Shown: piece after piece, positions 33,438 to 48,901 of the stretch
How the letters are laid out: each line of letters opens with the position of its first letter
Position numbering within the stretch: position 1 is the stretch's first letter
Assembly (NCBI RefSeq): GCF_963665445.1
Contig: NZ_OY762276.1
Span: forward strand, 3,113,501 to 3,177,500
Origin: an uncultured Desulfobulbus sp.
GTDB lineage: Bacteria; Desulfobacterota; Desulfobulbia; Desulfobulbales; Desulfobulbaceae
DNA length: 64,000 nucleotides
Direction of reading: 5' to 3'
Position numbers and translations under genes: made by a program
The notes under the pieces: model-generated
Databases searched by the model: none
Told to the model about the DNA's origin: nothing
Seen by the model: the letters and a program-made list of their open reading frames with translations, nothing else

Positions 33438-34688
33438 ATGCATACCCTACAACAGCAAGATCCGGATATTTTCAGCCTGATCCAGCAGGAAGAGTTTCGT
33501 CAAAAGGATAAAATCCGTCTGATCGCCTCGGAAAATTATGTGTCCAAAGCCGTCATGGAGGCCACCGGTTCGGTTTTAACCAACAAGTACTCCGAAGGCT
33601 ACCCGGGTAAACGCTACTATGAGGGGCAGCAGTATATCGACCAGGTCGAGAGCCTGGCTATCCAGCGCGCCAAGGATCTGTTCGGTGCCGAGCATGTCAA
33701 TGTGCAGTCCTATTCCGGCTCACCGGCCAACCTGGCTGTCTACCTGGCCTTCATGAGCCCTGGCGATACCATCCTCGGCATGGCCCTGCCCCACGGCGGC
33801 CATCTGACCCACGGTGCCAAGGTTTCAATTTCCGGCAAATATTTTAATGCCGAATCGTACTCGCTGGATGAACAAACCGGTCTGCTCAACTACGACACCA
33901 TCCGTGAAAAGGCCCTGGCCTGTACACCGAAAATCCTTATCGCAGGCCATTCGGCCTATCCGCGCGTGCTTGATTTCGCCAAGTTCCGCGAGATCGCCGA
34001 TGCCTGCGGTGCCATGCTCATGGTCGATATGGCCCACTTTGCCGGCCTGGTCGCCGGTGGCGCCCATCCGTCGCCCTTTCCCTATGCTGACATCGTCACC
34101 ACCACGACCCACAAATCCCTGCGCGGCCCGCGCGGCGCGATGATCATGTGCAAACAGGAATATGCGGCCGCAATCGACAAGGCGGTTTTTCCTGGCCTGC
34201 AGGGTGGCCCGCACAACAATACCACCGCGGCCATTGCCGTGGCCCTTAAAGAGGCCGCCACCGACGAGTTCAAGGGGTATGCGGCACAGATTGTGAAAAA
34301 TGCCCAGGCCCTGGCCAAAACCCTGATCGACAAGGGATTCAACCTGGTCACCGGCGGCACCGAGAACCACCTGATGCTTATCGACCTGACCAACAAGGAG
34401 GTCACCGGCAAGATCGCTGCAAAGGCCCTTGATGCGGCCGGCATCGTCCTGAACTACAACGCCGTACCCTACGACAAGCGCAAGCCCTTTGATCCCAGCG
34501 GCATTCGCCTGGGGGCTGCGGCAGTCACCTCCCGCGGCTTCAAGGAGGAGCAGATGGTTCAAATCGGTCTGTGGATCGATGCCATCATCGCCGACCCGAA
34601 CAATACCGGACTGCAGGCAGAAACTGCCGAGGCAGTCAAGGCCCTCTGCGCCCAATTCCCTGCTCCCGGCCTGGATCATCTGATGTAA
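33438..34688 (+). CDS. glyA: Serine hydroxymethyltransferase
   Basis: 416 residues, full length. PLP lysine K226 in TTTTHKSLRGPRG, substrate motifs SENYVS (31-36) and NKYSEGYPGKRYYEGQ (49-64). It interconverts serine and glycine with tetrahydrofolate, feeding one-carbon metabolism. Single gene with its own ribosome-binding site and terminator. Confidence 0.97.
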   Translation: MHTLQQQDPDIFSLIQQEEFRQKDKIRLIASENYVSKAVMEATGSVLTNKYSEGYPGKRYYEGQQYIDQVESLAIQRAKDLFGAEHVNVQSYSGSPANLAVYLAFMSPGDTILGMALPHGGHLTHGAKVSISGKYFNAESYSLDEQTGLLNYDTIREKALACTPKILIAGHSAYPRVLDFAKFREIADACGAMLMVDMAHFAGLVAGGAHPSPFPYADIVTTTTHKSLRGPRGAMIMCKQEYAAAIDKAVFPGLQGGPHNNTTAAIAVALKEAATDEFKGYAAQIVKNAQALAKTLIDKGFNLVTGGTENHLMLIDLTNKEVTGKIAAKALDAAGIVLNYNAVPYDKRKPFDPSGIRLGAAAVTSRGFKEEQMVQIGLWIDAIIADPNNTGLQAETAEAVKALCAQFPAPGLDHLM

Positions 34689-34759: not shown

Positions 34760-36208
34760 TTATTGCAGCGTCTGCACAACCGTCCCGGCGAAGTCGACGA
34801 ACTTGGCCGGAAGCGCTCCCATGAGGCAGATGGCTACCACCAGGACCACACCGGTGACCTGAATCACGGGGTGGACCAGGATATCGGGCCGCTCACCGGG
34901 CTCACCGGTATAGGCTGCCTTGACCACGGAGAGATAGTAGTAGATGGCAATGGCGGTATTGATTGCCGCAAGACAGACCGCCACCAGATGATCGGCCCGC
35001 AGGGCCGAGGTCAGGATCATGAATTTTCCCATGAAGCCGACAAAGGGTGGGATACCGGCCAAGCCGAACAGACCGGCAGCAAGGACAAAAGCCATCACCG
35101 GCTGGCGCTTGTACAGCCCGTTGAAATCTTCGATGGTGAGATTCTCACCTTTCTGCGAGACGTTGCTGATCACCAGGAAGCAGGCAAGGTTCATCACCAC
35201 GTAACCGGCGATGTAGTAGATTGCCAGTCCGTACCCTTCACTGTCCAGCGACAGCAGGCCAAGGACGATAAAGCCTGCATGGGCGATACCCGAGAAGCCG
35301 AGCATACGCTTGATATCCTTTTGCACCAGGGCACTGAGGTTGCCGTAGAACATGGAGGCCAGTGCAAGTACCGCCAGCAGTTGGATAAGAAAGGCGGAAT
35401 GATCGGTGGGCAGGGAGAGAAAACGAATCAACAGGGCCACAGCACCGAATTTGGGGATGGTGGCAATGAAACCGGTGGTTTCATTGGATGCCCCCTGATA
35501 GATATCCGGTACCCAGAAGTGCATGGGGAAGACCGCCAGCTTGTAGAGAAAACCGGCGAGCACCATCACCAGGGCGACAACCACGGTGGGCTGAAGGTTG
35601 CCCTCGCCGAGAAATGCAAAGATGCCCTTGAGGTAGGTGGTCCCGGTGAGGCCAAAGAGCAGGCTCATGCCGTAGAGCATGAAGCCGGTTCCCATGACGC
35701 CAAAGAGGATGTACTTGATGCCCGCTTCCATCTGCGACCGTGTACCGGTGCTGTCGTCGCGCATCGGCACCAGCAGGTACAGAGCAAAGGAGGAAAGTTC
35801 GAGCGAGATGAAAATCGCCATCAACTCTACCGAGCTGACCAGCATCATCAGGCCAAGCACGCTGAGGAAAAGGAACATGTAGTACTCAGGCCTTATCTTA
35901 CGATCGATCGCCTTGAGGTTCTGGCTGAACAGGAGAAAGATGGCCAGCGCCGAACCTATCATCATCTTGAACAGCTGGGAATACTGATCAACAGAGTAGG
36001 CTCCGTAAAACAAGGTTGCCTGTTTATTAAAGGCAAGCAGCGTAGCGGCAAAGGTTGCGAGCCCAAAGGTGAGGGCCACCGATTTGGGTGCCTGTTCGGA
36101 GACATTTTTTCCAAGGCTGAGCAAAAAGAGCGCAAGCGCGCCGATGGTCAGCACAAGTTCGGGAAGAATAACCATAGGAAGTGCCTTTCTTCGGGTTTCC
36201 CCAAACAC
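34760..36208 (-). CDS. nuoN: Complex I subunit NuoN
   Basis: 482 residues, about 14 membrane helices. It keeps the antiporter-type charged residues: the helix-5 Glu in ISLELSSFALYLL, the helix-7 Lys in GFLYKLAVFPMHFWVPDIY, a helix-8 Lys in ATIPKFGAVALL and a late Lys in GFMGKFMIL. Proton-pumping subunit nearest the hydrophilic arm. Last gene of the operon; the start is 54 bases from the nuoM stop. Confidence 0.95.
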   Translation of the reverse strand: MFGETRRKALPMVILPELVLTIGALALFLLSLGKNVSEQAPKSVALTFGLATFAATLLAFNKQATLFYGAYSVDQYSQLFKMMIGSALAIFLLFSQNLKAIDRKIRPEYYMFLFLSVLGLMMLVSSVELMAIFISLELSSFALYLLVPMRDDSTGTRSQMEAGIKYILFGVMGTGFMLYGMSLLFGLTGTTYLKGIFAFLGEGNLQPTVVVALVMVLAGFLYKLAVFPMHFWVPDIYQGASNETTGFIATIPKFGAVALLIRFLSLPTDHSAFLIQLLAVLALASMFYGNLSALVQKDIKRMLGFSGIAHAGFIVLGLLSLDSEGYGLAIYYIAGYVVMNLACFLVISNVSQKGENLTIEDFNGLYKRQPVMAFVLAAGLFGLAGIPPFVGFMGKFMILTSALRADHLVAVCLAAINTAIAIYYYLSVVKAAYTGEPGERPDILVHPVIQVTGVVLVVAICLMGALPAKFVDFAGTVVQTLQ

Positions 36209-36262
36209 CGCCTCCCGGTCAGGGAGACGGGTTGGTCAGAGTAACGGGTTAGGAAAATATCG

Positions 36263-37780
36263 TTATCGCAGCAGGGTGGCGGCTACCTGGGGATGCTGCT
36301 GCCAGGCATGGAACTGATCCAGCAGGTGGCCAACCGAACCATGGATCAGATCGATAAAGGGCTGCGGACCAAGACCGATCCAGAGGACAAAAAGAAGGAA
36401 AGGGGTCAGCACGATGATCTCGCGCACGCCCAGATCCTTCAGGTAGGACTGGTCGGGATTGTCGGTTCCACCCCAAACGATCTTCTGCAGCATGCGCAAC
36501 ATATAGGCTGCCGCCAACACCGCACCGGGAATGGCTGCCAGGGCCATGAAAATGTTGTGTTCAAAGGTTCCGGCCAGCACCAGGAACTCACCGATAAAAG
36601 AGTTGGTTCCCGGGAAGCCGAAGGACGACAGCGAGAAAAAGGCGAGAAAGGTGACAAACCAGGGCATGTACTTGCCCAGCCCCGTGGCCAGCGACAGTTC
36701 GCGGCTGTGGGTCCGTTCGTAGATCATGCCCACGCAGAGAAAGAGGCCACCGGTGGTCACACCGTGGTTGATCATCTGCAGGATGGCACCTTCAAGGCCT
36801 CGAGTGTTGAGCACGAAAATACCGAGGGTGACAAACCCCATGTGGCCCACCGAGGAGTAGGCGATCAGTTTTTTCATGTCATGCTGGGCAAGCGCGGTAA
36901 AACCGCCGTAGATGATCCCTGCAATGGAGAGCCACAGGATCGGCTGCGCCAGCAGCACGGTCGCATCGGGGGTAATCGGCAGACAGAAACGAAGCAGACC
37001 GTAGGTGCCCATCTTCAGCAGGATCGAGGCCAGAATGACCGAACCGGCGGTCGGAGCCTCGACATGGGCTGCCGGCAACCAGGTGTGAAAGGGAAACATC
37101 GGCACCTTGATCGCGAAGGCGAGAAAGAAGGCCAAAAACACCAGCAACTGGAAGGTCTGTGAGTAGGGCTGCCACATCATCTCCGGAATGAAGAAGGAGC
37201 CGGTCTTGAGGTAGAGCGCGATGATCGCCACCAGCAGAAGGACAGATCCGGCCAAGGTGTAGAGGAAAAACTTGATCGACGCATAGACCTTACGCGGTCC
37301 GCCCCAGATGGCAATCAACAGATACATCGGGATCAGCATGAACTCCCAGAAGACGTAGAACAGGATGAAGTCAAGCGCAACGAACACGCCGATCATCGAG
37401 GTCTCCATAATCAGGAGGCAGAACATGAATGGGGTGACCCGCTTCTGAATGTATCTCCAACTCGCCAGCACGCAAAAGGGCATGATGAGTGTGGTCAACA
37501 GCACTAGCAGAATGGAAATCCCGTCCATGCCAACGATGTAGTTGATATGGAACTGGGGAATCCATTTATACGCCTCGGCGAACTGGTACTTGTTGCTGGA
37601 TGCATCAAAGCCGAACAGCAACGGAATAGAGCAGATCGCGGTGATGCTGGTGATGGCCAGAGCCCACCGACGGGCAAAATTCTCCCCCCGGAAAAAGAGC
37701 AGGACGAAGGCGCCCGCCAGGGGGAAGAAGATAAGAAAACTGAGCAGGGGAAATCCCTCTTGAATGACTAATAAATCCAT
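36263..37780 (-). CDS. nuoM: Complex I subunit NuoM
   Basis: 505 residues. Standard NuoM residues: Glu in FWEFMLIPMYLLIAIWGG, Lys in AFAIKVPMFPFHTWLPAAHVEAP, Lys in ASILLKMGTYGLLRF and the NuoM-specific Glu in SFIGEFLVLAG. Middle antiporter-like proton pump. It begins 13 bases after the upstream NuoL-like gene. Confidence 0.96.
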   Translation of the reverse strand: MDLLVIQEGFPLLSFLIFFPLAGAFVLLFFRGENFARRWALAITSITAICSIPLLFGFDASSNKYQFAEAYKWIPQFHINYIVGMDGISILLVLLTTLIMPFCVLASWRYIQKRVTPFMFCLLIMETSMIGVFVALDFILFYVFWEFMLIPMYLLIAIWGGPRKVYASIKFFLYTLAGSVLLLVAIIALYLKTGSFFIPEMMWQPYSQTFQLLVFLAFFLAFAIKVPMFPFHTWLPAAHVEAPTAGSVILASILLKMGTYGLLRFCLPITPDATVLLAQPILWLSIAGIIYGGFTALAQHDMKKLIAYSSVGHMGFVTLGIFVLNTRGLEGAILQMINHGVTTGGLFLCVGMIYERTHSRELSLATGLGKYMPWFVTFLAFFSLSSFGFPGTNSFIGEFLVLAGTFEHNIFMALAAIPGAVLAAAYMLRMLQKIVWGGTDNPDQSYLKDLGVREIIVLTPFLLFVLWIGLGPQPFIDLIHGSVGHLLDQFHAWQQHPQVAATLLR

Positions 37781-37793
37781 GTCCTATTTCCCC

Positions 37794-39584
37794 TTAGAGC
37801 AGCTGAAAAGAGATGAAGGTTACCAGGAGAACGGCGGCAAGGGAGAATGCGTAATACAGGGAAATTTGAATCTGGCCGCTTTGCAGCAGACGCACCTTGC
37901 TGCCGAGTCCACGCACTAAACGGGCGATACCGTCTACTACGCCGTCAATGGCGTTCCAGTCAAACCAACTCCAGAACCGGCTCAGGGACATCAGCGAGAA
38001 AAGTCCGACAACCCGGTAGGCCTCGCCCCAGGCCGTATCCACTCCCTGAATCGGCTTTTTGATGCACCACATGAATCCGCAGGCAGCCTTGCGATAGAGC
38101 CAGTCGATATCCAGACAGATCCGATCCACAGGTTCCACAGAGCGTTTCAAGACAAAGAAGGCCAAGGCGGCAAAACCGAGCAACTGCAAGGTCTCCATGA
38201 AATGGTACATGGTGTGCGGATTGTATTCCACATGGTAAGGCAGCAGGTCGTAGAGAAATCCCGGTGCAGTGCCGACAACAATGCAGAGGGTCGAGCCCAG
38301 GGTCATGGCTATCATCATGTTCCAGGGCGGGTCACCAGCGCGATCAAAGGTTTCCTCGCTGCAGTTGTTTTTGCCGAAGAAAAGAAAATACGGCAGTTTG
38401 AGACCGTTGTACATGAAGGTGCCGGTGGCCCCGAACATCAACAGCCAGGAGGCCCAGTTGAGGTGATGTTCAAAACCTGCGGTGATGATCATCGACTTAC
38501 TGGCGTAGGCCGCAAAAAAGGGCGCCGCCGATATCGACAGACAGCCGACCATGGTGAAAAAGAAGGTAAACGGCATTTTTGCATAGAGCCCCCCGAGTTC
38601 GGTGAACTTGGTTTTGCCGGTCATGTAGAGCACCGTCCCGGTTCCCATGAACAGCAGGCTCTTATACAAAATGTGGGCAACTGCGTGTGCAACCGCACCG
38701 TTGATCGCCATCTCGGTGCCAATACCGATGGCCGCGACCATGTAACCGACCTGGGAGACAATCGACCAGGCGAGCAGTTTGCGGATATCGTTCTCCATCA
38801 CCGCGTAGATGACGCCGTAGAGGGCCATGATTACGCCAAGCACGACCAAGATTTCCATGCCGGCGCAGGCGCGGGCCAGGGTGTAGACAGCGGTCTTGGT
38901 GGTGAAGGCGCAGAGGAAGACCGCACCGTTGAAGGAGGCCTCGGAGTAGGCCTCGGGCAACCAGGAATGCATCGGGACCATGGCGGCGTTCAAACCGAAG
39001 CCGATCATGATCAGCCAGGTGTAGAACTGCGGATGGGTGACATCGAGAAGATCAAAGGTGATGTTGCCCATTGCCTTGTAGCGCAGCATGATACCGGCAA
39101 GAAGGATGATTCCGCCGATGGTATGAATCAGAAGGTAGCGATAGCCAACTTGCAGCGACTGCGGTCCCCGTCGAAACCAGATGAGAAAGACAGAGGCAAA
39201 GGCCATCATCTCCCAGAAGAAAAACAGGCTCAGGTAGTCGCCACAGTAGATGGTTCCCAGGGAACCGGCAGCGTAGAACCAGGCCGCCATGTGTTCTCCG
39301 GCACGTTCGACCTTCAAGCCGTACAGGGTACCGATAACCGCCATCAACCCCATGATCAGGGCAAAGACAGTGGAAAGCTTGTCAACCCGGCCGAACACCA
39401 GTTGCCAGTCCATGAACTGAACCAGGCCGAAGGTACCGGACAAGGTGGTGTTGAGCGCAATGGCACTCAGGGCCAGGAGCGGCACGAGAAAGAGATAGGG
39501 CTTACGCAACGGCCCCTGAATAAAGGGCAGGAGCAACGCCCCCCCTATCAGGAGCAATGAGGGATGAATGAAACCAGGGGTCAT
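37794..39584 (-). CDS. NuoL/MrpD-like antiporter subunit of complex I
   Basis: 596 residues. About 14 membrane helices, then a C-terminal extension with the NuoL-type ending (FDWNAIDGVVDGIARLVRGL, then LLQSGQIQ and a last helix), so it likely occupies the distal NuoL place. It retains the helix-5 Glu (FFFWEMMAF), helix-8 Lys (AFTTKTAVYTL) and late Lys (AYASKSMII). The helix-7 Lys found in NuoL/M/N is Asn here (GFGLNAAMVPMHSWLPEAY). It overlaps the small membrane gene by 4 bases. The closest-looking relatives are Mrp-D-like proteins, so an MrpD name would also be fair. Confidence 0.85.
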   Translation of the reverse strand: MTPGFIHPSLLLIGGALLLPFIQGPLRKPYLFLVPLLALSAIALNTTLSGTFGLVQFMDWQLVFGRVDKLSTVFALIMGLMAVIGTLYGLKVERAGEHMAAWFYAAGSLGTIYCGDYLSLFFFWEMMAFASVFLIWFRRGPQSLQVGYRYLLIHTIGGIILLAGIMLRYKAMGNITFDLLDVTHPQFYTWLIMIGFGLNAAMVPMHSWLPEAYSEASFNGAVFLCAFTTKTAVYTLARACAGMEILVVLGVIMALYGVIYAVMENDIRKLLAWSIVSQVGYMVAAIGIGTEMAINGAVAHAVAHILYKSLLFMGTGTVLYMTGKTKFTELGGLYAKMPFTFFFTMVGCLSISAAPFFAAYASKSMIITAGFEHHLNWASWLLMFGATGTFMYNGLKLPYFLFFGKNNCSEETFDRAGDPPWNMMIAMTLGSTLCIVVGTAPGFLYDLLPYHVEYNPHTMYHFMETLQLLGFAALAFFVLKRSVEPVDRICLDIDWLYRKAACGFMWCIKKPIQGVDTAWGEAYRVVGLFSLMSLSRFWSWFDWNAIDGVVDGIARLVRGLGSKVRLLQSGQIQISLYYAFSLAAVLLVTFISFQLL

Positions 39585-39853
39585 GCTTCTTCCTCACTGG
39601 ATTGGGAACGGGTATAAAAATCGGTCGGCGCCTGGATTCCGGAACGTCCGAACCAACGTGCCGCACCGATAATCACGGCAGCCGCCGCAAAACCAAACAG
39701 AGACCAAAAACAGGGAACGTGCTGCTCCACCCAGGTATGGGCGTGATGGGTGTCCACCAGGTTGGAGCAGGCGGCTATGACCGCGAGCAACACGTAGCAG
39801 ACCACCACCACGGTTTTCAACCGGGCTTGCAGGTACTTGATTACACCAATCAT
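39581..39853 (-). CDS. Small two-helix membrane protein inside the nuo operon
   Basis: 90 residues. Two membrane helices (about 11-31 and 49-65) joined by a His-rich loop (DTHHAHTWVEQHVPC), with a charged tail. It overlaps both neighbours by 4 bases (ATGA-type), so translation is coupled to the two antiporter genes. No known complex I subunit has this sequence. It is probably a structural or accessory subunit that fits between the two extra membrane proteins; this is inferred from position. Confidence 0.75.
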   Translation of the reverse strand: MIGVIKYLQARLKTVVVVCYVLLAVIAACSNLVDTHHAHTWVEQHVPCFWSLFGFAAAAVIIGAARWFGRSGIQAPTDFYTRSQSSEEEA

Positions 39854-41349
39854 CCTATGACCATCCTGACAAATTGCATCATGAAGTTGGGATAGATACC
39901 GATGATGACCGAGACGGTTGCAGCGATCAAAAGCGGTATCAACATGCTCAGCGGCGCCTCTTTAATGCCGGTCTCGGCCTGACCACTGGGCCGCTTGCCG
40001 AAAAAGGCCTTGAAGGTGATCGGGGCAAAATAGGCGACGTTGAGCACCGTGGAGGCGATCAGGATCAAGAGGATCCCTATCTGATGCGCTTCCATGGATC
40101 CGACCAACAGGTACCACTTGGAGACGAACCCGGCCACCGGAGGAGCACCGATCATGGAGAGCGAGGCCACGGCAAAGGCACCGAAGGTAAAGGGCATGGT
40201 CCGCCCCAGCCCGCTCATTTCGGAGATATATTTCTTGTGGGCGGCGATATAGATCGCACCGGCACAGAAGAACAGGGTGATTTTGGAAAAGGCGTGATTG
40301 ACGATGTGGATCAGACCGCCTTCGATCCCATGGGGAGTGAGCATGGCTACACCAAGGATAATGTAGGACAACTGGCTGACCGTGGAGTAGGCCAGACGCG
40401 CTTTCAGATTATCCTTGGACAGGGCGATCATCGAGGCGACGATGATCGTGAATCCGACGAAATAGGCGGTGGGTATTCCGAGATGCAACCGGGCCATGGT
40501 GTCCACGCCAAAGACGTAGAGCATGGTGCGGGTGGTGCAGAACACACCGACCTTAACAACGGCCACCGCATGGAGGAGTGCGGAAACCGGGGTGGGCGCG
40601 ACCATCGCTCCAGGCAGCCAGTGGTGAAACGGCATCACACCGTTTTTGGCAAAGCCGAAGATGCAGAAGACATAGAGCATGATCACCACCCAATCCTTGG
40701 CCGTGGTGGGAATGATCCCCGCGCTGATGGAGTGCGGAAAATCGAGTGTCCCGGAGAGCACATAGATGAGGATGATCGCCGGCAGGAGAAAGAATTTCGC
40801 CGTGGTCGTCAGATAGATGATGTATTTGCGGGCGCCGTCATAGGACTCCGCATCCTGATGATGGGCAACCAGCGGATAGGTGCAGACCGAGACGATCTCG
40901 TAGAAGAGATAGAGGGTCAGCAGGTTATCGGAAAACGCCACACCGATGGCACCGAAGATGGCCAGGGCAAAACAGGCGTTGAACCGAGTCTGGCAGGGTT
41001 CATCGTGGGCGCGCATGTAGCCCATCGAATAGTAGACCGCGATGATCCACAGGGAGGAGGCCACCAGGGCAAAGATCATGGAAAAGCCGTCTGCCCGCAG
41101 GGTGATGGACAGTCCCGGCAGCAGGGTGAACAGGGTGTACTTCAGGGTTTCACCGGCCCTGATGGCCGGAATGAAGGACAGGACCATGATAAAAAGCAGA
41201 ACCGAAGCGGCGGAGGAGACGAACTCCCGCAGATTGGGTTGCTTTTTCAGGTTCATCACCACCAGGCTGCCGGCCAGGGGGATAAGCACCGCCAGCAGCA
41301 GGTTGGCATTTTCAACGACTCGGGCAAGATCAGGGGTAACAGCGTGCAT
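39850..41349 (-). CDS. MrpD-like antiporter subunit (fourth antiporter-type subunit)
   Basis: 499 residues, about 14 membrane helices and no NuoL-type C-terminal extension. All key charges are present: Glu in FYEIVSVCTYPL, Lys in GFAKNGVMPFHHWLPGAM, Lys in AVAVVKVGVF and Lys in GFVSKWYLLVG. Sequence style is Mrp-D/NuoL. It sits between nuoK and the small membrane gene, i.e. where nuoL normally begins. Ordinary complex I has three such subunits, so this is an addition. Confidence 0.88.
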   Translation of the reverse strand: MHAVTPDLARVVENANLLLAVLIPLAGSLVVMNLKKQPNLREFVSSAASVLLFIMVLSFIPAIRAGETLKYTLFTLLPGLSITLRADGFSMIFALVASSLWIIAVYYSMGYMRAHDEPCQTRFNACFALAIFGAIGVAFSDNLLTLYLFYEIVSVCTYPLVAHHQDAESYDGARKYIIYLTTTAKFFLLPAIILIYVLSGTLDFPHSISAGIIPTTAKDWVVIMLYVFCIFGFAKNGVMPFHHWLPGAMVAPTPVSALLHAVAVVKVGVFCTTRTMLYVFGVDTMARLHLGIPTAYFVGFTIIVASMIALSKDNLKARLAYSTVSQLSYIILGVAMLTPHGIEGGLIHIVNHAFSKITLFFCAGAIYIAAHKKYISEMSGLGRTMPFTFGAFAVASLSMIGAPPVAGFVSKWYLLVGSMEAHQIGILLILIASTVLNVAYFAPITFKAFFGKRPSGQAETGIKEAPLSMLIPLLIAATVSVIIGIYPNFMMQFVRMVIG

Positions 41350-41364
41350 GGTAGTCTTCTCCCC

Positions 41365-41691
41365 TTATCCTTGAAGATCAGTGAGGTCGTCGGTTTCTAT
41401 CGACTTGTAATTGCGATAGACTGCGATCAAAATACTGACGGCAATCGCCGCTTCAGCCGCAGCGATGGCCATGATGAACAGGGTAAAAATCTGGCCGACC
41501 GTCGGATCGGGCGAGGTAAAACGGCTGAAGGCCATGAAGTTGGTTGAGGCGGCAGCCAGGATGAACTCCGAGGAGACCAGCATACCGATCACGGTTCGGC
41601 GCACCACCATGCCGTACACCCCAAAGGAGAACAGCACGGCGCCGATCACCAGGTAGGTGGTGAGGCAATTGTGAAGATTAAGCAGTTGCAT
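41365..41691 (-). CDS. nuoK: Complex I subunit NuoK
   Basis: 108 residues, three helices. The conserved Glu residues of helices 2 and 3 are in SSEFILAAASTNFMAF and AIAAAEAAIAVSILI. It belongs to the E-channel linking quinone chemistry to the pumps. The stop lies 15 bases before the MrpD-like gene start. Confidence 0.95.
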   Translation of the reverse strand: MQLLNLHNCLTTYLVIGAVLFSFGVYGMVVRRTVIGMLVSSEFILAAASTNFMAFSRFTSPDPTVGQIFTLFIMAIAAAEAAIAVSILIAVYRNYKSIETDDLTDLQG

Positions 41692-41694
41692 CGG

Positions 41695-42249
41695 TTAATT
41701 TCTCCCTCTCTGTGCAAGCACCAAGGCGCCGATGATGGCCAAGAGCAGGACGACGGAAATAAGTTCAAACACAAAACCGTAGTTGGTTAAAAGGGCCAAA
41801 CCAACAGCCTTGATGTCGCCGGCCCCCTGTCGGGTGAAGACCTGCCAATCGGTTTTCAGTCCGAGCAGGGTCAGCGCAGCAAAGAGCAGACCGGCAACAG
41901 AGGCGGCAAGCGGTCCCGCCAGGGCGGAGCGGCTCTTCATGCCGGTGGACTGCTGCTCCTCGGGGGTGGCCATCATGATACCGAAGGCAATCAGGATGGA
42001 GACCGCACCGACATAGATCAACATCTGCATCATGGCCAGAAAAGGACTCAGCAGAAAGTAATACACCCCGGCCAAACCGGTAAAACAGACGGCAAGACCG
42101 GCAACGGCACGGACCAGCCGATTGGCATTGACCGCAATCATTGCGCCGCTGATGACCAGGGCCACGGTCAGCAAAAAGATGACGCCTACCACGCCCTCCG
42201 GGGAAAACAGGCTGGGGGCAGCACCCGTCTGACAGACTAACGTTTGCAT
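41695..42249 (-). CDS. nuoJ: Complex I subunit NuoJ
   Basis: 184 residues, five helices. The helix-3 segment MQMLIYVGAVSILIAFGIMM, whose middle forms the pi-bulge, is recognisable (MLIYVGAVSILIAF). It is 3 bases from nuoK and overlaps nuoI by 13 bases. Confidence 0.94.
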   Translation of the reverse strand: MQTLVCQTGAAPSLFSPEGVVGVIFLLTVALVISGAMIAVNANRLVRAVAGLAVCFTGLAGVYYFLLSPFLAMMQMLIYVGAVSILIAFGIMMATPEEQQSTGMKSRSALAGPLAASVAGLLFAALTLLGLKTDWQVFTRQGAGDIKAVGLALLTNYGFVFELISVVLLLAIIGALVLAQRGRN

Positions 42250-42689
42250 GAATTCTGATCCTCCAACCGTTTCATCAGATCGATGATAAAGTCATTTTTG
42301 TCAAAGCTGGCCAAATTGTAGACCCTGGAGTAGCGGATGGCATTGAAATTACAACTTTCCACGCATGAACCACAGAGACTGCATTTGGTAAAATCCAGTA
42401 CATAGGAAGTGAGAACCTTTCCCTTGCCATCCTCGTTTTTCTTGCTGGAGAGGCTGATGCATCCGGAGGGACAGGCGCGCTGGCACATACCGCAGGCAAC
42501 GCAGTTGGGTGCACCGGTCTCCTCGTTGCCAATCAACTCGATGTGCCCCCGGAATTTCGGTGTCATGGTCGGCACCTCCCAGGGATAGTGTTCGGTCACC
42601 ACCGGTTTAAAAAACTCCCGGGCGGTGATCATCATGCCGGTGATCAGGCTTTTACCGCCGGTGATTATATCGCTCCAATAGCCACTCAT
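42237..42689 (-). CDS. nuoI: Complex I subunit NuoI (two 4Fe-4S)
   Basis: 150 residues. Motifs CVACGMCQRACPSGC and CSLCGSCVESCNFNA bind clusters N6a and N6b. It carries electrons to NuoB. In complexes without NuoEFG it is the likely docking face for a ferredoxin or other soluble donor. It starts 1 base from the nuoH stop. Confidence 0.95.
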   Translation of the reverse strand: MSGYWSDIITGGKSLITGMMITAREFFKPVVTEHYPWEVPTMTPKFRGHIELIGNEETGAPNCVACGMCQRACPSGCISLSSKKNEDGKGKVLTSYVLDFTKCSLCGSCVESCNFNAIRYSRVYNLASFDKNDFIIDLMKRLEDQNSCKR

Positions 42690-42690
42690 G

Positions 42691-43683
42691 TCAGAACACC
42701 TTGATCAGGGCTGCGGTAATCAACAGATTAGCCAAGGAAAAGGGAATCAGGATCTTCCAGCTCAGGTTGAGCAGTCGATAGATCTGGACACGCGGGAAGG
42801 TCCAACGGATCCAGATAAAGGTGAAGATCAGGATGTAAATTTTAATCAAGAACCACCAGATGCCGGGTGTCATGCCAAAGGGGCAGTCCCAGCCGCCGAG
42901 AAAGAGGGTCGCTGTCAGACAGGCGCCGACCACGATGTTGAGATACTCCCCCATCATGAAGAGGCCAAAACCCATGGAGCTGTACTCGGTCATGAAGCCA
43001 GCCACCAGCTCGCTTTCCGCCTCGGCCATGTCAAAGGGTGCGCGGTTTGTTTCCGCCACCGAGCAGATAAAGAAGATGATGAAGGAGATCCACATGGTGA
43101 TGAAATGGCCATTCTCCACCCGGAAAATGTTCCAGTGCCAGAATCCACCCTGCTGATCGAGGGCAATATCCCGCAGGTTCATGGAACCAGAGATCATGAC
43201 CACCGTGATTACAGTGAGCAGCATGGGAATTTCATAGGCCAGGTTCTGCGACACCGAACGGGCGCCGGAGATGATGGCGTACTTATTGCCCGAGGCCCAG
43301 CCGCCGAGGAGGATAGCGATCATCCCTATGGAGGCCAGGGCAAAGAGCAACAGGACGGACAACTCCATGTTGCGGGCGCCGACATTTTCCGAAAAGGGAA
43401 TGACCGCCATGGAGGTGATCGCCGGGATCATAGCCAGAACCGGGGCCACCCGAAAAAGAATCCCATCAACCCCCTGGGGAACGAGCAGCTGCTTGCTCAA
43501 AAGCTTCAGGCCATCGCACAGGGGTTGCAGGAGTCCGGCAAAACCGGCCTCGGTGGGACCGGTACGACGTTGAATGCGGGCAGCGCCTTTACGCTCGCAC
43601 CACCCTAGCCATGCGGCGTTGACGCCGGCAAAAGCGAGTATGCCCACCCAATACAAGAGGGCGCGCCAAATACTTGTTTCCAT
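42691..43683 (-). CDS. nuoH: Complex I subunit NuoH
   Basis: 330 residues, eight helices. It forms the quinone-access channel; the signature ETNRAPFDMAEAESELVAG is intact, as is RTGPTEAGFAGLLQPLCDGLK (read as RTGPTEAGFAG and LQPLCDGLKLL). The start is 20 bases from the nuoD stop. Confidence 0.97.
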   Translation of the reverse strand: METSIWRALLYWVGILAFAGVNAAWLGWCERKGAARIQRRTGPTEAGFAGLLQPLCDGLKLLSKQLLVPQGVDGILFRVAPVLAMIPAITSMAVIPFSENVGARNMELSVLLLFALASIGMIAILLGGWASGNKYAIISGARSVSQNLAYEIPMLLTVITVVMISGSMNLRDIALDQQGGFWHWNIFRVENGHFITMWISFIIFFICSVAETNRAPFDMAEAESELVAGFMTEYSSMGFGLFMMGEYLNIVVGACLTATLFLGGWDCPFGMTPGIWWFLIKIYILIFTFIWIRWTFPRVQIYRLLNLSWKILIPFSLANLLITAALIKVF

Positions 43684-43703
43684 ATAACTCTTACCTCACA
43701 TGA

Positions 43704-44822
43704 TCAGCGATCAATCTCGGGAATAACAAGGTCAAGGCTGCCCATAAAAGCCAGGGCATCGGCAATCAGCATGCCTTCGGCCACCTCGCCGAACAGACTG
43801 AGGTTGCAAAATGTCGGCGAACGCAGTTTGAGCTTGTACGGATTCTTGTCCCCTGTGCAGACCAACCGATGGCCCAGGGCACCACGGGCAGTTTCAACTG
43901 CGGAGTAGTAGTATCCGGCTTCGGGCTTAAGTACCTTGGGCACCTTGGCCATGACCGGTCCGTCGGGCAGTTTGTCCAGGGCCTGTTCAATGATGCGCAA
44001 CGACTGCTCCACCTCATCCATGCGCACCATGTAGCGGGCCATGGAGTCGCACTCGTGATACACTGGAATATCAAAGTCGAATTCGGAGTAGACCGAGTAG
44101 GATTCGTTCTTACGGACGTCGTAATTGATTCCGGATCCACGGGCAACAGGCCCGGTGGCCCCGTAACGGCGGCACTGCTCCGCAGAGATGAATCCGATAT
44201 CCTTGATACGTTTGATCAGAATAATATTGCCGGTCACCAGGTCGTGGTACATCCGCTGCCAGCGACTGCGCAACCGTTTGATAAAGGCGCGGGTACCGGT
44301 GATGAACTCGTCATCGATATCGTTGTACACCCCACCAAAACGCATATAGCAGTAGGTCAGTCGCGATCCGGTGATGCGTTCGAGCAGATCAATGATCTGT
44401 TCGCGATCGTCAAAGGCATAGAGCAGTGGGGTGAACCCACCGAGGTCGAGGAGAAATGCGGCCCACCAGAGCAGATGACTGGCAATGCGGTTGAGTTCAA
44501 CGGTGATGACCCGGATGTACTCAGCCCGTTCGGGCACCTCGATGCCGGCGGCTTTTTCCACCGCCAGGGCCCAGCCATGGTTGAAGGCAAGCGCATGGAG
44601 ATAATCCATGCGAGCGGTATTGGGCATAAACTGCGCATAGGTACCAGCTTCGGCCAGTTTCTCATGCATGCGGTGAATATAGCCCAGGACCGGCTCTGCC
44701 TTGACGATATACTCGCCGTCCATGGTCATTTTTACTCGCAGGACGCCGTGGGTGGCAGGATGCTGTGGCCCTACATTGAGGACAAAGGTTTCATCATGCC
44801 GTGGTGCTACTGGTACGGTCAT
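43704..44822 (-). CDS. nuoD: Complex I subunit NuoD
   Basis: 372 residues, separate from NuoC. Quinone-site residues are in NVGPQHPATHGVLR (His pair) and the Asp/Tyr region GYIHRMHEKLAE; the C-terminal FGEVAEGMLIADALAFMGSLDLVIPEIDR (ending SLDLVIPEIDR) is family-typical. It overlaps nuoC by 4 bases. Confidence 0.97.
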   Translation of the reverse strand: MTVPVAPRHDETFVLNVGPQHPATHGVLRVKMTMDGEYIVKAEPVLGYIHRMHEKLAEAGTYAQFMPNTARMDYLHALAFNHGWALAVEKAAGIEVPERAEYIRVITVELNRIASHLLWWAAFLLDLGGFTPLLYAFDDREQIIDLLERITGSRLTYCYMRFGGVYNDIDDEFITGTRAFIKRLRSRWQRMYHDLVTGNIILIKRIKDIGFISAEQCRRYGATGPVARGSGINYDVRKNESYSVYSEFDFDIPVYHECDSMARYMVRMDEVEQSLRIIEQALDKLPDGPVMAKVPKVLKPEAGYYYSAVETARGALGHRLVCTGDKNPYKLKLRSPTFCNLSLFGEVAEGMLIADALAFMGSLDLVIPEIDR

Positions 44823-45307
44823 GGCATATAATCCTTACGAAGGGGGAAAAAGTCAGCGTCTTCCGGCAGGAGAATGCGGATCAGATTGGGATGATCCTGG
44901 AACAGGACGCCATAGAAATCAAAGGTTTCCCGCTCGTGCCAGTCGGCAGAGGGGAAAACACCAGTAATGGTGGGAATTGCCGGAGTCTCGCGTGGAATAC
45001 GGGTCCGGACCATCACGCGGCAGTGCTCGCCTCCCAGGCGGTTGAAATCGTACACCACCTCCAACTGCTCTTGGTCAGGCCAGTCCACGCCGGAAATTGA
45101 TTCCAGAAAATAACCGTCCCGGTTCATTACCTCGGCAAGGGCAACCACCTGCGGGGAGGGGCAGAGCACCTCGATATGGTGGCCGTGCTTGACCGGGTCG
45201 GTCACCCGTATCCCGGGAGCCTCGACGAGCCCTTCTTCCTGGGCTGGGAATGCAACTCCGGGAAAAAGCTCTTGCAGAGCATTCAGTGTAGTCTCTTGTA
45301 ATGCCAT
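44819..45307 (-). CDS. nuoC: Complex I subunit NuoC
   Basis: 162 residues. The signature WHERETFDFYGVLFQDHPNL is clear (ERETFDFYGVLF). It scaffolds NuoD and NuoB. A 116-base gap separates it from nuoB, the largest within the operon. Confidence 0.95.
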   Translation of the reverse strand: MALQETTLNALQELFPGVAFPAQEEGLVEAPGIRVTDPVKHGHHIEVLCPSPQVVALAEVMNRDGYFLESISGVDWPDQEQLEVVYDFNRLGGEHCRVMVRTRIPRETPAIPTITGVFPSADWHERETFDFYGVLFQDHPNLIRILLPEDADFFPLRKDYMP

Positions 45308-45423
45308 GAATTTCGATGGGTTCGTTATAAATAAAAGATCAAAAGCCGCCTACCACCAGCTCGATACGTCCATGCGAGGTTCGTCGTTCTCACTATTTTT
45401 CAAAGAGCGACAACGTTTGCCTC

Positions 45424-45921
45424 TCAGTCAGGCTGTATCCGTGGCCAGCGACGTTTTCCAGTTATCTTCTCCTCCAGGGTCATAATCCCCTCGAGAAGCG
45501 CCTCAGGACGGGGGGGACATCCGGGAATGTAGACATCCACCGGAAAGAGCTTATCCGCCCCTTCGACAACGTTATAGTTTTCCTTCACCTTGAACGGCCC
45601 ACCGGAAATGGCGCAGTTGCCCATGGCAATAACCCACTTGGGCTCCGGCATCTGGTCGTAGAGGGTTTTAACGGCCAACTCCAACTTCTTGTTGATGGTT
45701 CCAGCAACGATCATGACATCACTCTGACGGGGCGAGGGGCGAAAAACCTCGGCGCCGAAGCGTGAAATATCGTAGCGGGAACCACCGGTGCACATCATTT
45801 CAATTGCACAGCAGGCCAACCCGAAGGTCATCGGCCAGAGGGAGTTGGCCCGCCCCAGGTTGAGCAACTGATCAAGCTGAGCAAACTGGACTATTGATGA
45901 AGGTACGATTTCTTCTCCCAC
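45424..45921 (-). CDS. nuoB: Complex I subunit NuoB (cluster N2)
   Basis: 165 residues from the GTG at 45921, preferred because AAAGGAG lies 7 bases upstream; an earlier GTG at 45942 lacks a site. N2 ligands: Cys37-Cys38 in [10 protein letters not shown], Cys in MGNCAISGG and Cys in IPGCPPRPE. It overlaps nuoA by 31 bases. Confidence 0.95.
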
Positions 45922-46298
45922 GAGAACACTCCTTTGCGCCACGCATAGACAATGGCGAGCGATAGAATAGCGACGAACAGCAGGACCTCATAGAAATCCC
46001 GCAGCCCCAGCTCCGGGCTATTGTAGGCGACGGCGACCGGAAAAAGGAAAAGCACATCCACATCAAAAGCGAGGAAGATGAGGGCATAAAGATAGTAGAT
46101 GATACCAAAACGAATCCAGGCACTGCCGATGGGCTCCATACCGCACTCGATCAGTTGCCCGGTACGGCCGACAGTCTGACGCGTGTGCGATGAAGGACTC
46201 AACAGTTTGACGATGATGATCGGGCCAAACCCGAACAACAGTGCCCCGATAAGAAACAGGGTCACATAGATGATATTGGTTTGAACAACTTGGTCCAT
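45891..46298 (-). CDS. nuoA: Complex I subunit NuoA
   Basis: 135 residues, three helices, with the family segments [20 protein letters not shown] ([10 protein letters not shown]) and [21 protein letters not shown] precedes the ATG by 6 bases. First gene of the operon, with a possible promoter just upstream. Confidence 0.95.
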
Positions 46299-46578: not shown

Positions 46579-47580
46579 ATGGCGATAACCTTCAGACAAC
46601 TGGAAATCTTCATTGCCGTTGCCGAAACCCAACAGGTGACGAGGGCCAGTAAAAAACTGCTGCTGACCCAGTCCGCCGTGAGCATGGCTTTGGGAGAGTT
46701 GGAAAACCAACTCGGCGGCCCGCTCTTTGACCGACATGGCCGCAGCCTGCTGCTCAACGATCGCGGCCGCTATCTCCTGCCCCTCTCCAAGGCCATCCTG
46801 CACCAGGTGGCGAACATCGAAACCATCCTCACCGAACAACAGGACACGGTGGCCGGGGTGCTTGAGATTGTGGCCTCCACCACCATCGGCAACTACGTTC
46901 TCCCCTATTTGATCGGCGCCTTCATGCGTCTCCACCCCGAGGCCCACATCAACATGCTGGTGGTCAACACCATGACCGCCGAAAAACTGGTGGCCACCGG
47001 CCAGGCCGACCTCGGTTTCGTCGAAGGCGATATCAACGTGGATTCCCTCGTTGCCACCTCCTGGTTCGAAGACGAATTGGGCATCGTCATCAGTCCGCAC
47101 CACAAGTTGGCCGAGCGGGAGACGTTCATCATCCCCGATGATCTGAAGGAAACCAGCTGGGTCATGCGCGAGGAAGGATCGGGCACAGCGGAAATCTTCA
47201 CAAAAAAGTTGGGGCGTTATGCCTCGCTGCTGAAAGTCGTCACCAAAACCGGCCACACCGAGGCGATAAAAAAAGCGGTGGAATCGGGCGTCGGTGCGGC
47301 CTGTCTGTCCATGCTCACCGTTTGCCGCGAGGAAGAGGAGGGATGGCTGAAGACACTCCCCATCGAGGGCATCGACATGAGCCGGCAACTCTGGATCATC
47401 CAGCACAAGGACAAGATCATCACCCGCCTCATGTCGGAGTTTCTCCAGTTCTGCAATGTAGTGGCCAAAAATCACCTGGGACGCGAGTGCCTCGCCTCCC
47501 CCTGGAAACTGCAGTCGCTTCTGGCCCAGAGCAAACTGGAAAAAGAAGCAGCTCGCCCCGGCAAGGAAAAAACCGCCTAA
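46579..47580 (+). CDS. LysR-family transcriptional regulator
   Basis: 333 residues. Winged helix-turn-helix at the start (FRQLEIFIAVAETQQVTRAS, then LTQSAVSMALGELENQLG) and a periplasmic-binding-like effector domain (about 90-295). It lies divergently beside nuo, the classic position of a LysR regulator acting on its neighbour, but the target is not proven. The last 35 residues form a Lys/Glu-rich extension. Confidence 0.9.
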   Translation: MAITFRQLEIFIAVAETQQVTRASKKLLLTQSAVSMALGELENQLGGPLFDRHGRSLLLNDRGRYLLPLSKAILHQVANIETILTEQQDTVAGVLEIVASTTIGNYVLPYLIGAFMRLHPEAHINMLVVNTMTAEKLVATGQADLGFVEGDINVDSLVATSWFEDELGIVISPHHKLAERETFIIPDDLKETSWVMREEGSGTAEIFTKKLGRYASLLKVVTKTGHTEAIKKAVESGVGAACLSMLTVCREEEEGWLKTLPIEGIDMSRQLWIIQHKDKIITRLMSEFLQFCNVVAKNHLGRECLASPWKLQSLLAQSKLEKEAARPGKEKTA

Positions 47581-47692: not shown

Positions 47693-48901
47693 CTATTTCA
47701 GCGCAGCCAGGGCAGCAGTAATACGCTCCATCCCCTTCTTGATCACATCCATGGATGTGGCAAAAGAAAAACGGATAAAGGCATCCGCACCAAAGGCAGC
47801 GCCCGGTACCGAAGCGACATTGGCCTCACTGAGGAGGTAGTCTGCCAGGGCAAGCGATCCGTCAATGACCTGCCCGTTGAATGTCTTTCCGTAATAGGCG
47901 GAAAAATTGGGGAAGACATAAAACGCGCCCATGGGATTCACACAGCTTACTCCCGGGATCGAGCGCAGGGCCTCGACAAAATAGGTCCGGCGGGGAACGA
48001 AGGCCTTGAGCAACTGACGCGGAAAATCCTGGGGCCCGGTGAGAGCGGCCAACGCGGCATATTGGGAAGGGGCCGCCGGATTCGAGGTCGATTGGCTTTG
48101 AATCTTGTTCATCGCCTTGATGACCTCGATCGGGCCAATGGACCAGCCAATACGCCATCCGGTCATGGCAAAGGATTTGGAGACGCCGTTGGAGAGGACG
48201 ATCTGGTCCCGCAGACGGGGAATGGCATGTAGAATATGCGGAATCTTGCCATCGATGTAGGAGATCTCCTCGTACATGTCGTCGGTGATCACCAACCAGC
48301 CATTGTCATAGGCCATCTTCCCGACGGCGGCCAGGGACTCCTGCGAGAAAACCGACCCTGTCGGGTTGGAGGGACTGTTGAGCACGATCGCCTTGGTTTT
48401 TGGCGTCACGTACTGCGCCAGCACCTCGGTGTCGAAATCGAAATCGTTTTCCTCCTTGAGGGGAACAATGACCGGCGTTCCGCCGGCCAACTGAACCATG
48501 GGCGGATAGGAAACCCAGTAGGGCGCCGGAATCAGAACCTCATCCCCAGGATTCAAAATCGCCTGGAATATGTTGTACAGTCCGTGTTTGCCACCACAGC
48601 AGACCTGAACCTGATCGGCCTCATACTCCCAGCCCTTATCCTGCTTCAGCCTGGCGACAATGGCCTCCCGCAATTCAACAATACCCGACACCGGAGTATA
48701 ACGGGTATGCCCATCGTCGATGGCTTTTTTACCAGCCTCGCAGACGTGGGCAGGGGTCGACATATCCGGCTCCCCTACGCTAAAGTTCAAAATATCCGCA
48801 CCAGCGGCCCTGAGTGCCTTCGCCTTGGCATTGACGGCAAGCGTCGGCGAGGGAGCGACTTGCAGCACTCTCTCCGCAAGTACAAACTTTTCTGGCAACA
48901 T
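47693..48901 (-). CDS. Class I aspartate aminotransferase
   Basis: 402 residues, subfamily I-gamma (AspAT of many bacteria). PLP lysine in SNGVSKSFAMTGWRIGW; PLP contacts in NSPSNPTGSVFS; an Arg at FIRFSFATS near the C-terminus binds the substrate carboxylate. It moves amino groups between aspartate or a related acid and 2-oxoglutarate. Prephenate or aromatic substrates are possible in this subfamily. Confidence 0.92.
   Translation of the reverse strand: MLPEKFVLAERVLQVAPSPTLAVNAKAKALRAAGADILNFSVGEPDMSTPAHVCEAGKKAIDDGHTRYTPVSGIVELREAIVARLKQDKGWEYEADQVQVCCGGKHGLYNIFQAILNPGDEVLIPAPYWVSYPPMVQLAGGTPVIVPLKEENDFDFDTEVLAQYVTPKTKAIVLNSPSNPTGSVFSQESLAAVGKMAYDNGWLVITDDMYEEISYIDGKIPHILHAIPRLRDQIVLSNGVSKSFAMTGWRIGWSIGPIEVIKAMNKIQSQSTSNPAAPSQYAALAALTGPQDFPRQLLKAFVPRRTYFVEALRSIPGVSCVNPMGAFYVFPNFSAYYGKTFNGQVIDGSLALADYLLSEANVASVPGAAFGADAFIRFSFATSMDVIKKGMERITAALAALK

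Follow-up and report, generated by a model that had tools for sequence, protein, structure and literature searches.

A complex I operon without NADH module and with a putatively split NuoL in an uncultured Desulfobulbus sp.

It has long been asked how many protons are moved by complex I for each electron pair, and if every antiporter-like subunit moves one of them. The question is raised here by a 13-gene operon on the minus strand (34760-46298) of a 64,000-nucleotide stretch of an uncultured Desulfobulbus sp. (contig NZ_OY762276.1, positions 3,113,501 to 3,177,500), referred to in full length as the window. According to the open reading frame (ORF) list of the window, the gene order is A-B-C-D-H-I-J-K-X-S-L2-M-N, where X, S and L2 are our labels for the three genes between nuoK and nuoM, and no intergenic gap exceeds 116 bases. 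By their NCBIfam matches, four of the products are antiporter-type subunits: X, L2, NuoM and NuoN. A preliminary description of the window had already given all 13 genes in this order and at these coordinates, with two antiporter-type genes ahead of nuoM and nuoN, and our assignments agree with it. It added that, should all four pump, more protons could be moved per electron pair. Do all four pump?

39850..41349, minus strand: X, 499 residues, NF006236 (817 bits), with E151, K235, H260, K266, K316, K356 and K411
39581..39853, minus strand: S, membrane protein of 90 residues, from the ORF list, with 4-base overlaps with X and L2
37794..39584, minus strand: L2, 596 residues, NF009310 (706 bits), with N199 at the site of the lysine of transmembrane helix (TM) 7; in the AlphaFold2 model its C-terminus consists of a lateral helix (494-568) and a last TM helix (572-595)
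36263..37780, minus strand: nuoM, TIGR01972 (612 bits), with E146, K225 and E398
34760..36208, minus strand: nuoN, TIGR01770 (351 bits), with E137, K223 and K395

In our judgement it is somewhat more likely than not that the product of the operon is a green-type complex I that reduces quinone and has no NADH module, with X as a pump, L2 as a strap and S as a joint. Green complex I is the form that has two MrpD-like subunits in the place of NuoL (PMC9040806, PMC7415380). The X-S-L2 block would replace NuoL in the membrane arm. X would adjoin NuoM and pump like NuoL or MrpA, with coupling as far as X unchanged from ordinary complex I, whereas L2 would sit at the tip of the arm and strap it with its lateral helix. 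S, translated between the two, would most likely hold them together. Electrons would enter via NuoB, NuoC, NuoD and NuoI from a low-potential donor and reduce quinone.

Key residues of X and L2

In antiporter-like subunits, a lysine on TM7 (LysTM7) is described as conserved, essential and paired with a glutamate on TM5 (GluTM5), and this pair adjoins the TM12 residue of the neighbouring subunit (PMC7419157, PMC10212512). In one published mechanism, the pair and the TM12 residue of the neighbour are the coupling points (PMC7419157). L2 lacks this lysine in all 130 genes compared, the site being occupied by asparagine in 129 and by serine in one (L110), while LysTM7 is present in all 118 X, 105 NuoM, 96 NuoN and 15 MrpD genes covered by that residue count. 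Local alignment around the site is gapless, and the three solved relatives all have lysine there. Asparagine also occupies the site in the L2 of Sinorhizobium meliloti and in 15 of 15 L2 genes from Mrp operons. These numbers count genes fetched rather than independent genomes, and some contigs occur in more than one of the fetched sets; over their last 500 residues, 127 of the 130 L2 sequences are distinct.

The remaining key sites are nearly invariant. L2 retains GluTM5, LysTM8 and LysTM12 (130/130 each), NuoM has its TM5 glutamate (105/105) and TM12 glutamate (104/105), and NuoN its TM5 glutamate (96/96) and TM12 lysine (95/96). In X, GluTM5, LysTM7, HisTM8, Lys316, His348, Lys356 and LysTM12 are found in 118/118 and LysTM8 in 116/118. 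Because the TM7 lysine is lost, the Glu-Lys pair of L2 that would face X is broken, and L2 is most likely no ordinary redox-driven proton pump. Three fully equipped antiporter subunits (X, NuoM and NuoN) would be left, and a stoichiometry nearer to 4 than to 5 H+ per two electrons would therefore be expected. The preliminary description was thus right in counting four antiporter-type subunits, but its step from four subunits to four pumps is doubtful, since L2 lacks the lysine throughout.

A second set of residues bears on the order of the arm. X had been described as MrpD-like, which is correct by database name: both NF006236 (X) and NF009310 (L2) are called cation/H+ antiporter subunit D. 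Its residues tell otherwise, as His348 and Lys356 stand together on TM8, which is the pattern of MrpA and NuoL; in the Mrp structure, histidine and lysine together on TM8 are the MrpA pattern (PMC7419157). The residue following the TM12 lysine of X is tryptophan in 111, leucine in five and tyrosine in two of the 118 genes, and never aspartate or glutamate. An acidic residue stands at this place in tip subunits, namely NuoL of E. coli, both NuoLs of the window's own genome and its own MrpA, and is lacking in the inner subunits MrpD, NuoM and NuoN. X is thus of the inner rather than the terminal type at this position, and because it lacks the acidic residue of tip subunits, we infer that X lies inside and L2 at the tip. 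In a quick tree, with support from the Shimodaira-Hasegawa-like approximate likelihood ratio test (SH-aLRT) only, X falls outside the NuoM clade.

The lateral helix of L2 and the small protein S

The C-terminal segment of L2 from complex I operons is related to the part of NuoL that forms its lateral helix and final TM helix. The AlphaFold2 model of the window's L2, with a mean predicted local distance difference test score (pLDDT) of 87, has one continuous lateral helix followed by the TM helix, and its best PDB matches are antiporter chains of Mrp and complex I. We compared the spacing from DxDWxYR to the IDGVVDG-type motif. Among the 100 L2 genes of K-X-S-L2-M-N operons, this spacing is 54 in 95, 55 in one and an odd value in one; the other three escape the relaxed motif pattern, yet the motif is visible in them. 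A stricter pattern matched 84 of the 100 (54 in 83, 55 in one) and left 16 unmatched. The spacing is 54 in the S. meliloti L2 as well. The C-terminus of L2 from Mrp operons differs: the relaxed pattern fails in 14 of 15, with one stray match, and the stricter one matches 0/15. In the AlphaFold2 model of one such L2, residues 521-573 are below pLDDT 50, so that the model speaks neither for nor against a lateral helix.

The IDGVVDG-type motif follows the end of the preceding hydrophobic stretch, a point set by eye, at a distance of 65 residues in the window's L2 and 54 in NuoL2 of its own genome; for the NuoL of Paracoccus and the NdhF of Thermosynechococcus, the same distance, counted by eye, is 53 and 52. 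Hydropathy peaks are 111 residues apart in the S. meliloti L2, 99 in E. coli NuoL and 105 in each of the two own NuoLs; in this measure the last TM helix of the window's L2 stays under the peak threshold, and a usable pair of peaks was obtained for only some of the 78 relatives. An earlier idea of ours, drawn from the motif spacing, that the helix is longer than that of NuoL by one whole subunit (about 26 residues), was dropped because the extension is only about 6-13 residues. This looks short for a helix that, with L2 at the tip, would have three subunits to cross, one more than usual: either the strap ends before the usual anchor or the order of the arm differs.

The latter would be the case if L2 stood third in the arm, where NuoL usually is, its helix of near-canonical length lying over NuoM and NuoN, and X lay elsewhere, for example beyond L2. 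The short extension of the helix fits such an arrangement. X, however, combines the residue set of MrpA and NuoL with the inner-type residue after LysTM12, and L2 is without the lysine that would pair opposite the TM12 glutamate of NuoM, and we consider this placement of L2 quite unlikely.

S is a real gene, as judged from its 4-base overlaps with both neighbours and from its position between X and L2 in every one of 30 loci (the best-scoring 30 from 108 genomes matched, the window's own included). Matches to S, weak ones included, occur in 108 of 395 genomes of the window's phylum at 0.001, and no Pfam or NCBIfam model matches it at this threshold. From a reading of its sequence rather than a computed topology, S is probably a two-helix hairpin. 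Long open frames hinted at X-S or S-L2 gene fusions; none was present in the nine loci examined.

Several points weigh against a complex with X as pump and L2 as strap. One structural paper has the TM7/TM5 pair control the proton pathways rather than lie in them (PMC7419157), and in a Bacillus model NuoL K229A and the matching MrpA mutant barely altered growth and sodium handling (PMC4938563). As GluTM5, LysTM8 and LysTM12 of L2 are invariant, its proton path may survive. The lateral helix is some 6-13 residues longer than that of NuoL, whereas an insert of 26 residues has been reported where an arm has an extra pump (PMC9040806), and the pLDDT within it is modest (block means 54-81). The quick tree contains several long branches and does not separate X from L2 in nearness to NuoL and MrpA. 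That all 13 proteins join in one complex is presumed from the genes.

The invariant residues of L2 and the mild effect of K229A in Bacillus would also suit a complex in which all four antiporter-type subunits pump, moving about 5 H+ per two electrons, with the TM8 and TM12 lysines of L2 compensating for the asparagine. A published proposal for the green and 2M complexes likewise assigns 5-6 ions to arms with one or two extra pumping subunits (PMC9040806). The universal loss of LysTM7 in L2, next to its presence in every X, NuoM, NuoN and MrpD gene, argues against four pumps, as does E. coli, where K229A in NuoL is reported to lower both pumping and activity (cited in PMC4938563). We regard this possibility as unlikely, though it keeps some weight.

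Distribution and settings of the X-S-L2 block

The preliminary description had called the layout unusual, which does not hold, as it is that of the published green complex I (PMC9040806) and is seen in the gene order of S. meliloti. On pSymA of S. meliloti, nuoK is followed by a subunit D gene, a hypothetical gene of 84 codons, a second subunit D gene, nuoM and nuoN, and then by nuoA-F. As in green complex I, the window has two MrpD-like genes for nuoL between nuoK and nuoM. X and its pSymA counterpart share 53% identity over 93% of the query, and the small ORF between the two genes has 84 residues there and 90 in the window; this ORF as a mark of green complex I is taken from the S. meliloti locus and is maybe not the authors' own. 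Differences are that the S. meliloti set has NuoE and NuoF, whereas the window's operon is without E, F and G, and that K-X-S-L2-M-N precedes A-B-C-D-E-F there, whereas the window keeps the A-to-N order. The X-S-L2 layout is already published for rhizobia, and the window holds an NADH-module-free variant of it. Complex_I_3 of Ca. Manganitrophaceae also has two green-type MrpD-like subunits along with NuoM and NuoN, but it differs from the window, with its one NuoM, in that a second NuoM brings its pump-type subunits to five and the lateral helix of MrpD2 has an insert of 26 residues (PMC9040806).

As far as the literature was searched, what is new here is the loss of the TM7 lysine in L2 and the portability of the whole block between two hosts; no report of either was found in a search that did not cover the two papers likeliest to hold one.

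Four antiporter-type subunits, as in the window, are also found in the 2M complex I of Nitrospira, reportedly described by Chadwick et al. in 2018, and that of N. moscoviensis lacks some genes of the NADH module. There, a second NuoM is the additional subunit, next to a retained and lengthened NuoL, whereas in the window NuoM is single and NuoL is absent.

From a search of genome collections, 80 of 587 confirmed loci were kept, titled mainly Desulfobulbales, other delta-type bacteria and Verrucomicrobiota. The L2 proteins of the window and of D. rhabdoformis share 92% identity, and the named relatives place the organism within or beside Desulfobulbus. The last 115 residues of the window's L2 match 144 of 395 genomes of the phylum at 1e-5; among the matches listed, about 108 (counted by eye) begin within the first 10 query residues and are of the L2 type, and the others start mostly at residue 40 or later, mostly in longer frames, and represent NuoL. 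The NADH-module-free variant is common in the phylum. Genes resembling nuoE or nuoF lie near the block in 6 of 99 complex I loci (partial contigs included), two of these being S. meliloti strains. Of 72,556 plasmid records, 124 have a match to X at 1e-50 (Sinorhizobium 67, Rhizobium 19, Ensifer 11).

In a comparison of gene orders in relatives, suggested as a check in the preliminary description, 100 of the 130 L2 genes stand in the order K-X-S-L2-M-N, two in K-M-X-S-L2-N and two in K-M-N-X-S-L2. Besides these 104 genes in complex I operons, 15 lie in Mrp operons after mrpD, and 11 are at contig ends or in an unclear setting. Given this split between 104 complex I operons of three orders and 15 Mrp operons, the block is portable between the two hosts. 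X was recognised before L2 in 124 of the 130 and S in 100; some of the missing cases lie off the contig, and others are masked by an overlapping frame, as at L105, which has an annotated S.

In the Mrp operons, the block stands at the place of mrpA (L063, L065, L067, L073, L076, L080, L081, L082, L084, L088, L090, L093, L094, L170 and L171, of which L093 and L171 appear to be one contig). In L141 and L142 it is inserted between nuoM and nuoN, and L141 is headed by formate-dehydrogenase-like genes. In L068 and L089, with the order K-M-N-X-S-L2, NuoM and NuoN are nearer to those of the second complex I of the window's genome. Metagenome-assembled genomes titled Verrucomicrobiota (Opitutia, Limisphaerales and others; L145, L152, L153, L156-L158, L162-L165, L167-L169 and L175) carry the same operon or part of it. 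Their L2 shares 53-59% identity with that of the window, and this points to lateral transfer or mis-binning.

Group 3 Mrp antiporters with extra mrpD-like genes (PMC7784846, PMC5703873) are a related case, in that relatives of the window carry X-S-L2 at the place of mrpA in Mrp operons; extra mrpD- or mrpA-like genes beside the group 3 cluster had been noted earlier (PMC7784846). These antiporters differ from the window's complex in having no quinone or iron-sulfur subunits, and L2 in Mrp operons is without the NuoL-type helix motif. One could hence read X-S-L2 of the window as a separate, Mrp-like sodium/proton antiporter, merely co-transcribed with complex I, and its occurrence in Mrp operons (15/130 L2 genes) speaks for such a reading, which the preliminary description had listed among the outcomes that would refute its own. 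The window's operon, however, contains neither NuoL nor other Mrp subunit genes: MrpB, MrpE, MrpF and MrpG are absent among its genes, 12 of the 13 being assigned otherwise and S having no family match. A complex minus the block would possess no lateral helix at all, the NuoL-type motif tracks the complex I context, and the block directly precedes nuoM in 100 of 130 cases. We consider a separate antiporter very improbable.

A broader interpretation, for which we see a little less than an even chance, is that X-S-L2 is a split, portable NuoL/MrpA, with the pump in X and the bracing helix in L2, and that L2, without its TM7 lysine in every copy read, is a retired pump kept as cap and strap. The block would have been plugged into complex I and into Mrp antiporters alike, with the strap-forming C-terminus fitted to the host.

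Electron entry and proton stoichiometry

The remaining genes of the operon, and a regulator gene next to it, are as follows.

45891..46298, minus strand: nuoA, PF00507 (1.3e-27)
45424..45942, minus strand: nuoB, PF01058, with cysteines CC, C, C as in E. coli NuoB (alignment)
44819..45307, minus strand: nuoC, PF00329
43704..44822, minus strand: nuoD, 372 residues, NF004739 above cut-off
42691..43683, minus strand: nuoH, NF004741 above cut-off
42237..42689, minus strand: nuoI, TIGR01971 (6.5e-30, below cut-off), with both four-cysteine groups present (alignment)
41695..42249, minus strand: nuoJ, NF005168 (6e-28, below cut-off) and alignment
41365..41691, minus strand: nuoK, NF004320 above cut-off, with both membrane glutamates of E. 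coli NuoK (alignment)
46579..47580, plus strand: LysR-type regulator, PF03466 and PF00126, divergent and directly upstream of the operon

NuoN, NuoM, NuoK, NuoJ, NuoI, NuoH and NuoD were assigned by NCBIfam, with NuoJ and NuoI scoring below the curated cut-offs of their matched models, and NuoC, NuoB and NuoA by Pfam. NuoD matches PF00346 in two pieces, skipping profile positions 176-197, and aligns in one stretch to archaeal FpoD. Because the key residues of NuoB, NuoI and NuoK are kept, electron transfer to quinone and coupling are plausible for the encoded complex.

By the family assignments of the window's genes, NuoE, NuoF and NuoG are missing from the operon, as the preliminary description had noted; NuoF-type genes (PF01512) number none in the window and six elsewhere in the genome. 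The operon therefore departs from the canonical 14-subunit type, having no E, F, G or NuoL, and agrees with the 11-subunit type without NADH module in A-D, H-K, M and N, with NuoL replaced by X-S-L2. Two further complex I sets are encoded in the same genome: a canonical one, NuoA-N, that includes E, F, G and NuoL, and a second, 11-gene one with its own ordinary NuoL, headed by genes that are formate-dehydrogenase-like by sequence reading rather than by family scan. It also has sets resembling group 4 hydrogenase and Mrp antiporter, and PF00361 occurs at 14 places.

Ferredoxin is the usual guess for the donor of a complex I without NADH module. In two relatives (L070 and L091), genes of 165-171 and 466-467 codons precede nuoA; those of L070, which look like NfnA/NfnB, are a weak hint at a donor link to ferredoxin and NADPH. 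A conserved gene of about 480 codons upstream in many relatives was dropped as an electron-entry partner, its sequence looking like that of a MurC/Mpl-type ligase.

The LysR-type gene is a possible regulator of the operon, as suggested by its position. In E. coli the LysR-type gene lrhA also adjoins nuoA, but on the same strand as nuo, whereas that of the window is divergent. Further upstream lies a gene for a multihaem cytochrome-like protein of 590 residues (49239-51011, Pfam). The ORF between the two (47693-48901) presumably encodes an aminotransferase, and that on the other flank of the operon (33438-34688) what we take to be a serine hydroxymethyltransferase.

If L2 is indeed no pump, the proton stoichiometry cannot be read from a count of antiporter-like genes, and the 5 and 6 protons proposed in print for green-type complexes would overstate the true number by one. 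An arm with four such subunits, of which one is without LysTM7 at otherwise invariant key sites, would be a natural case that separates the pump count from the subunit count. Culturable Desulfobulbus or S. meliloti would allow the stoichiometry to be measured, and estimates in print that are based on counting subunits would be called into question.

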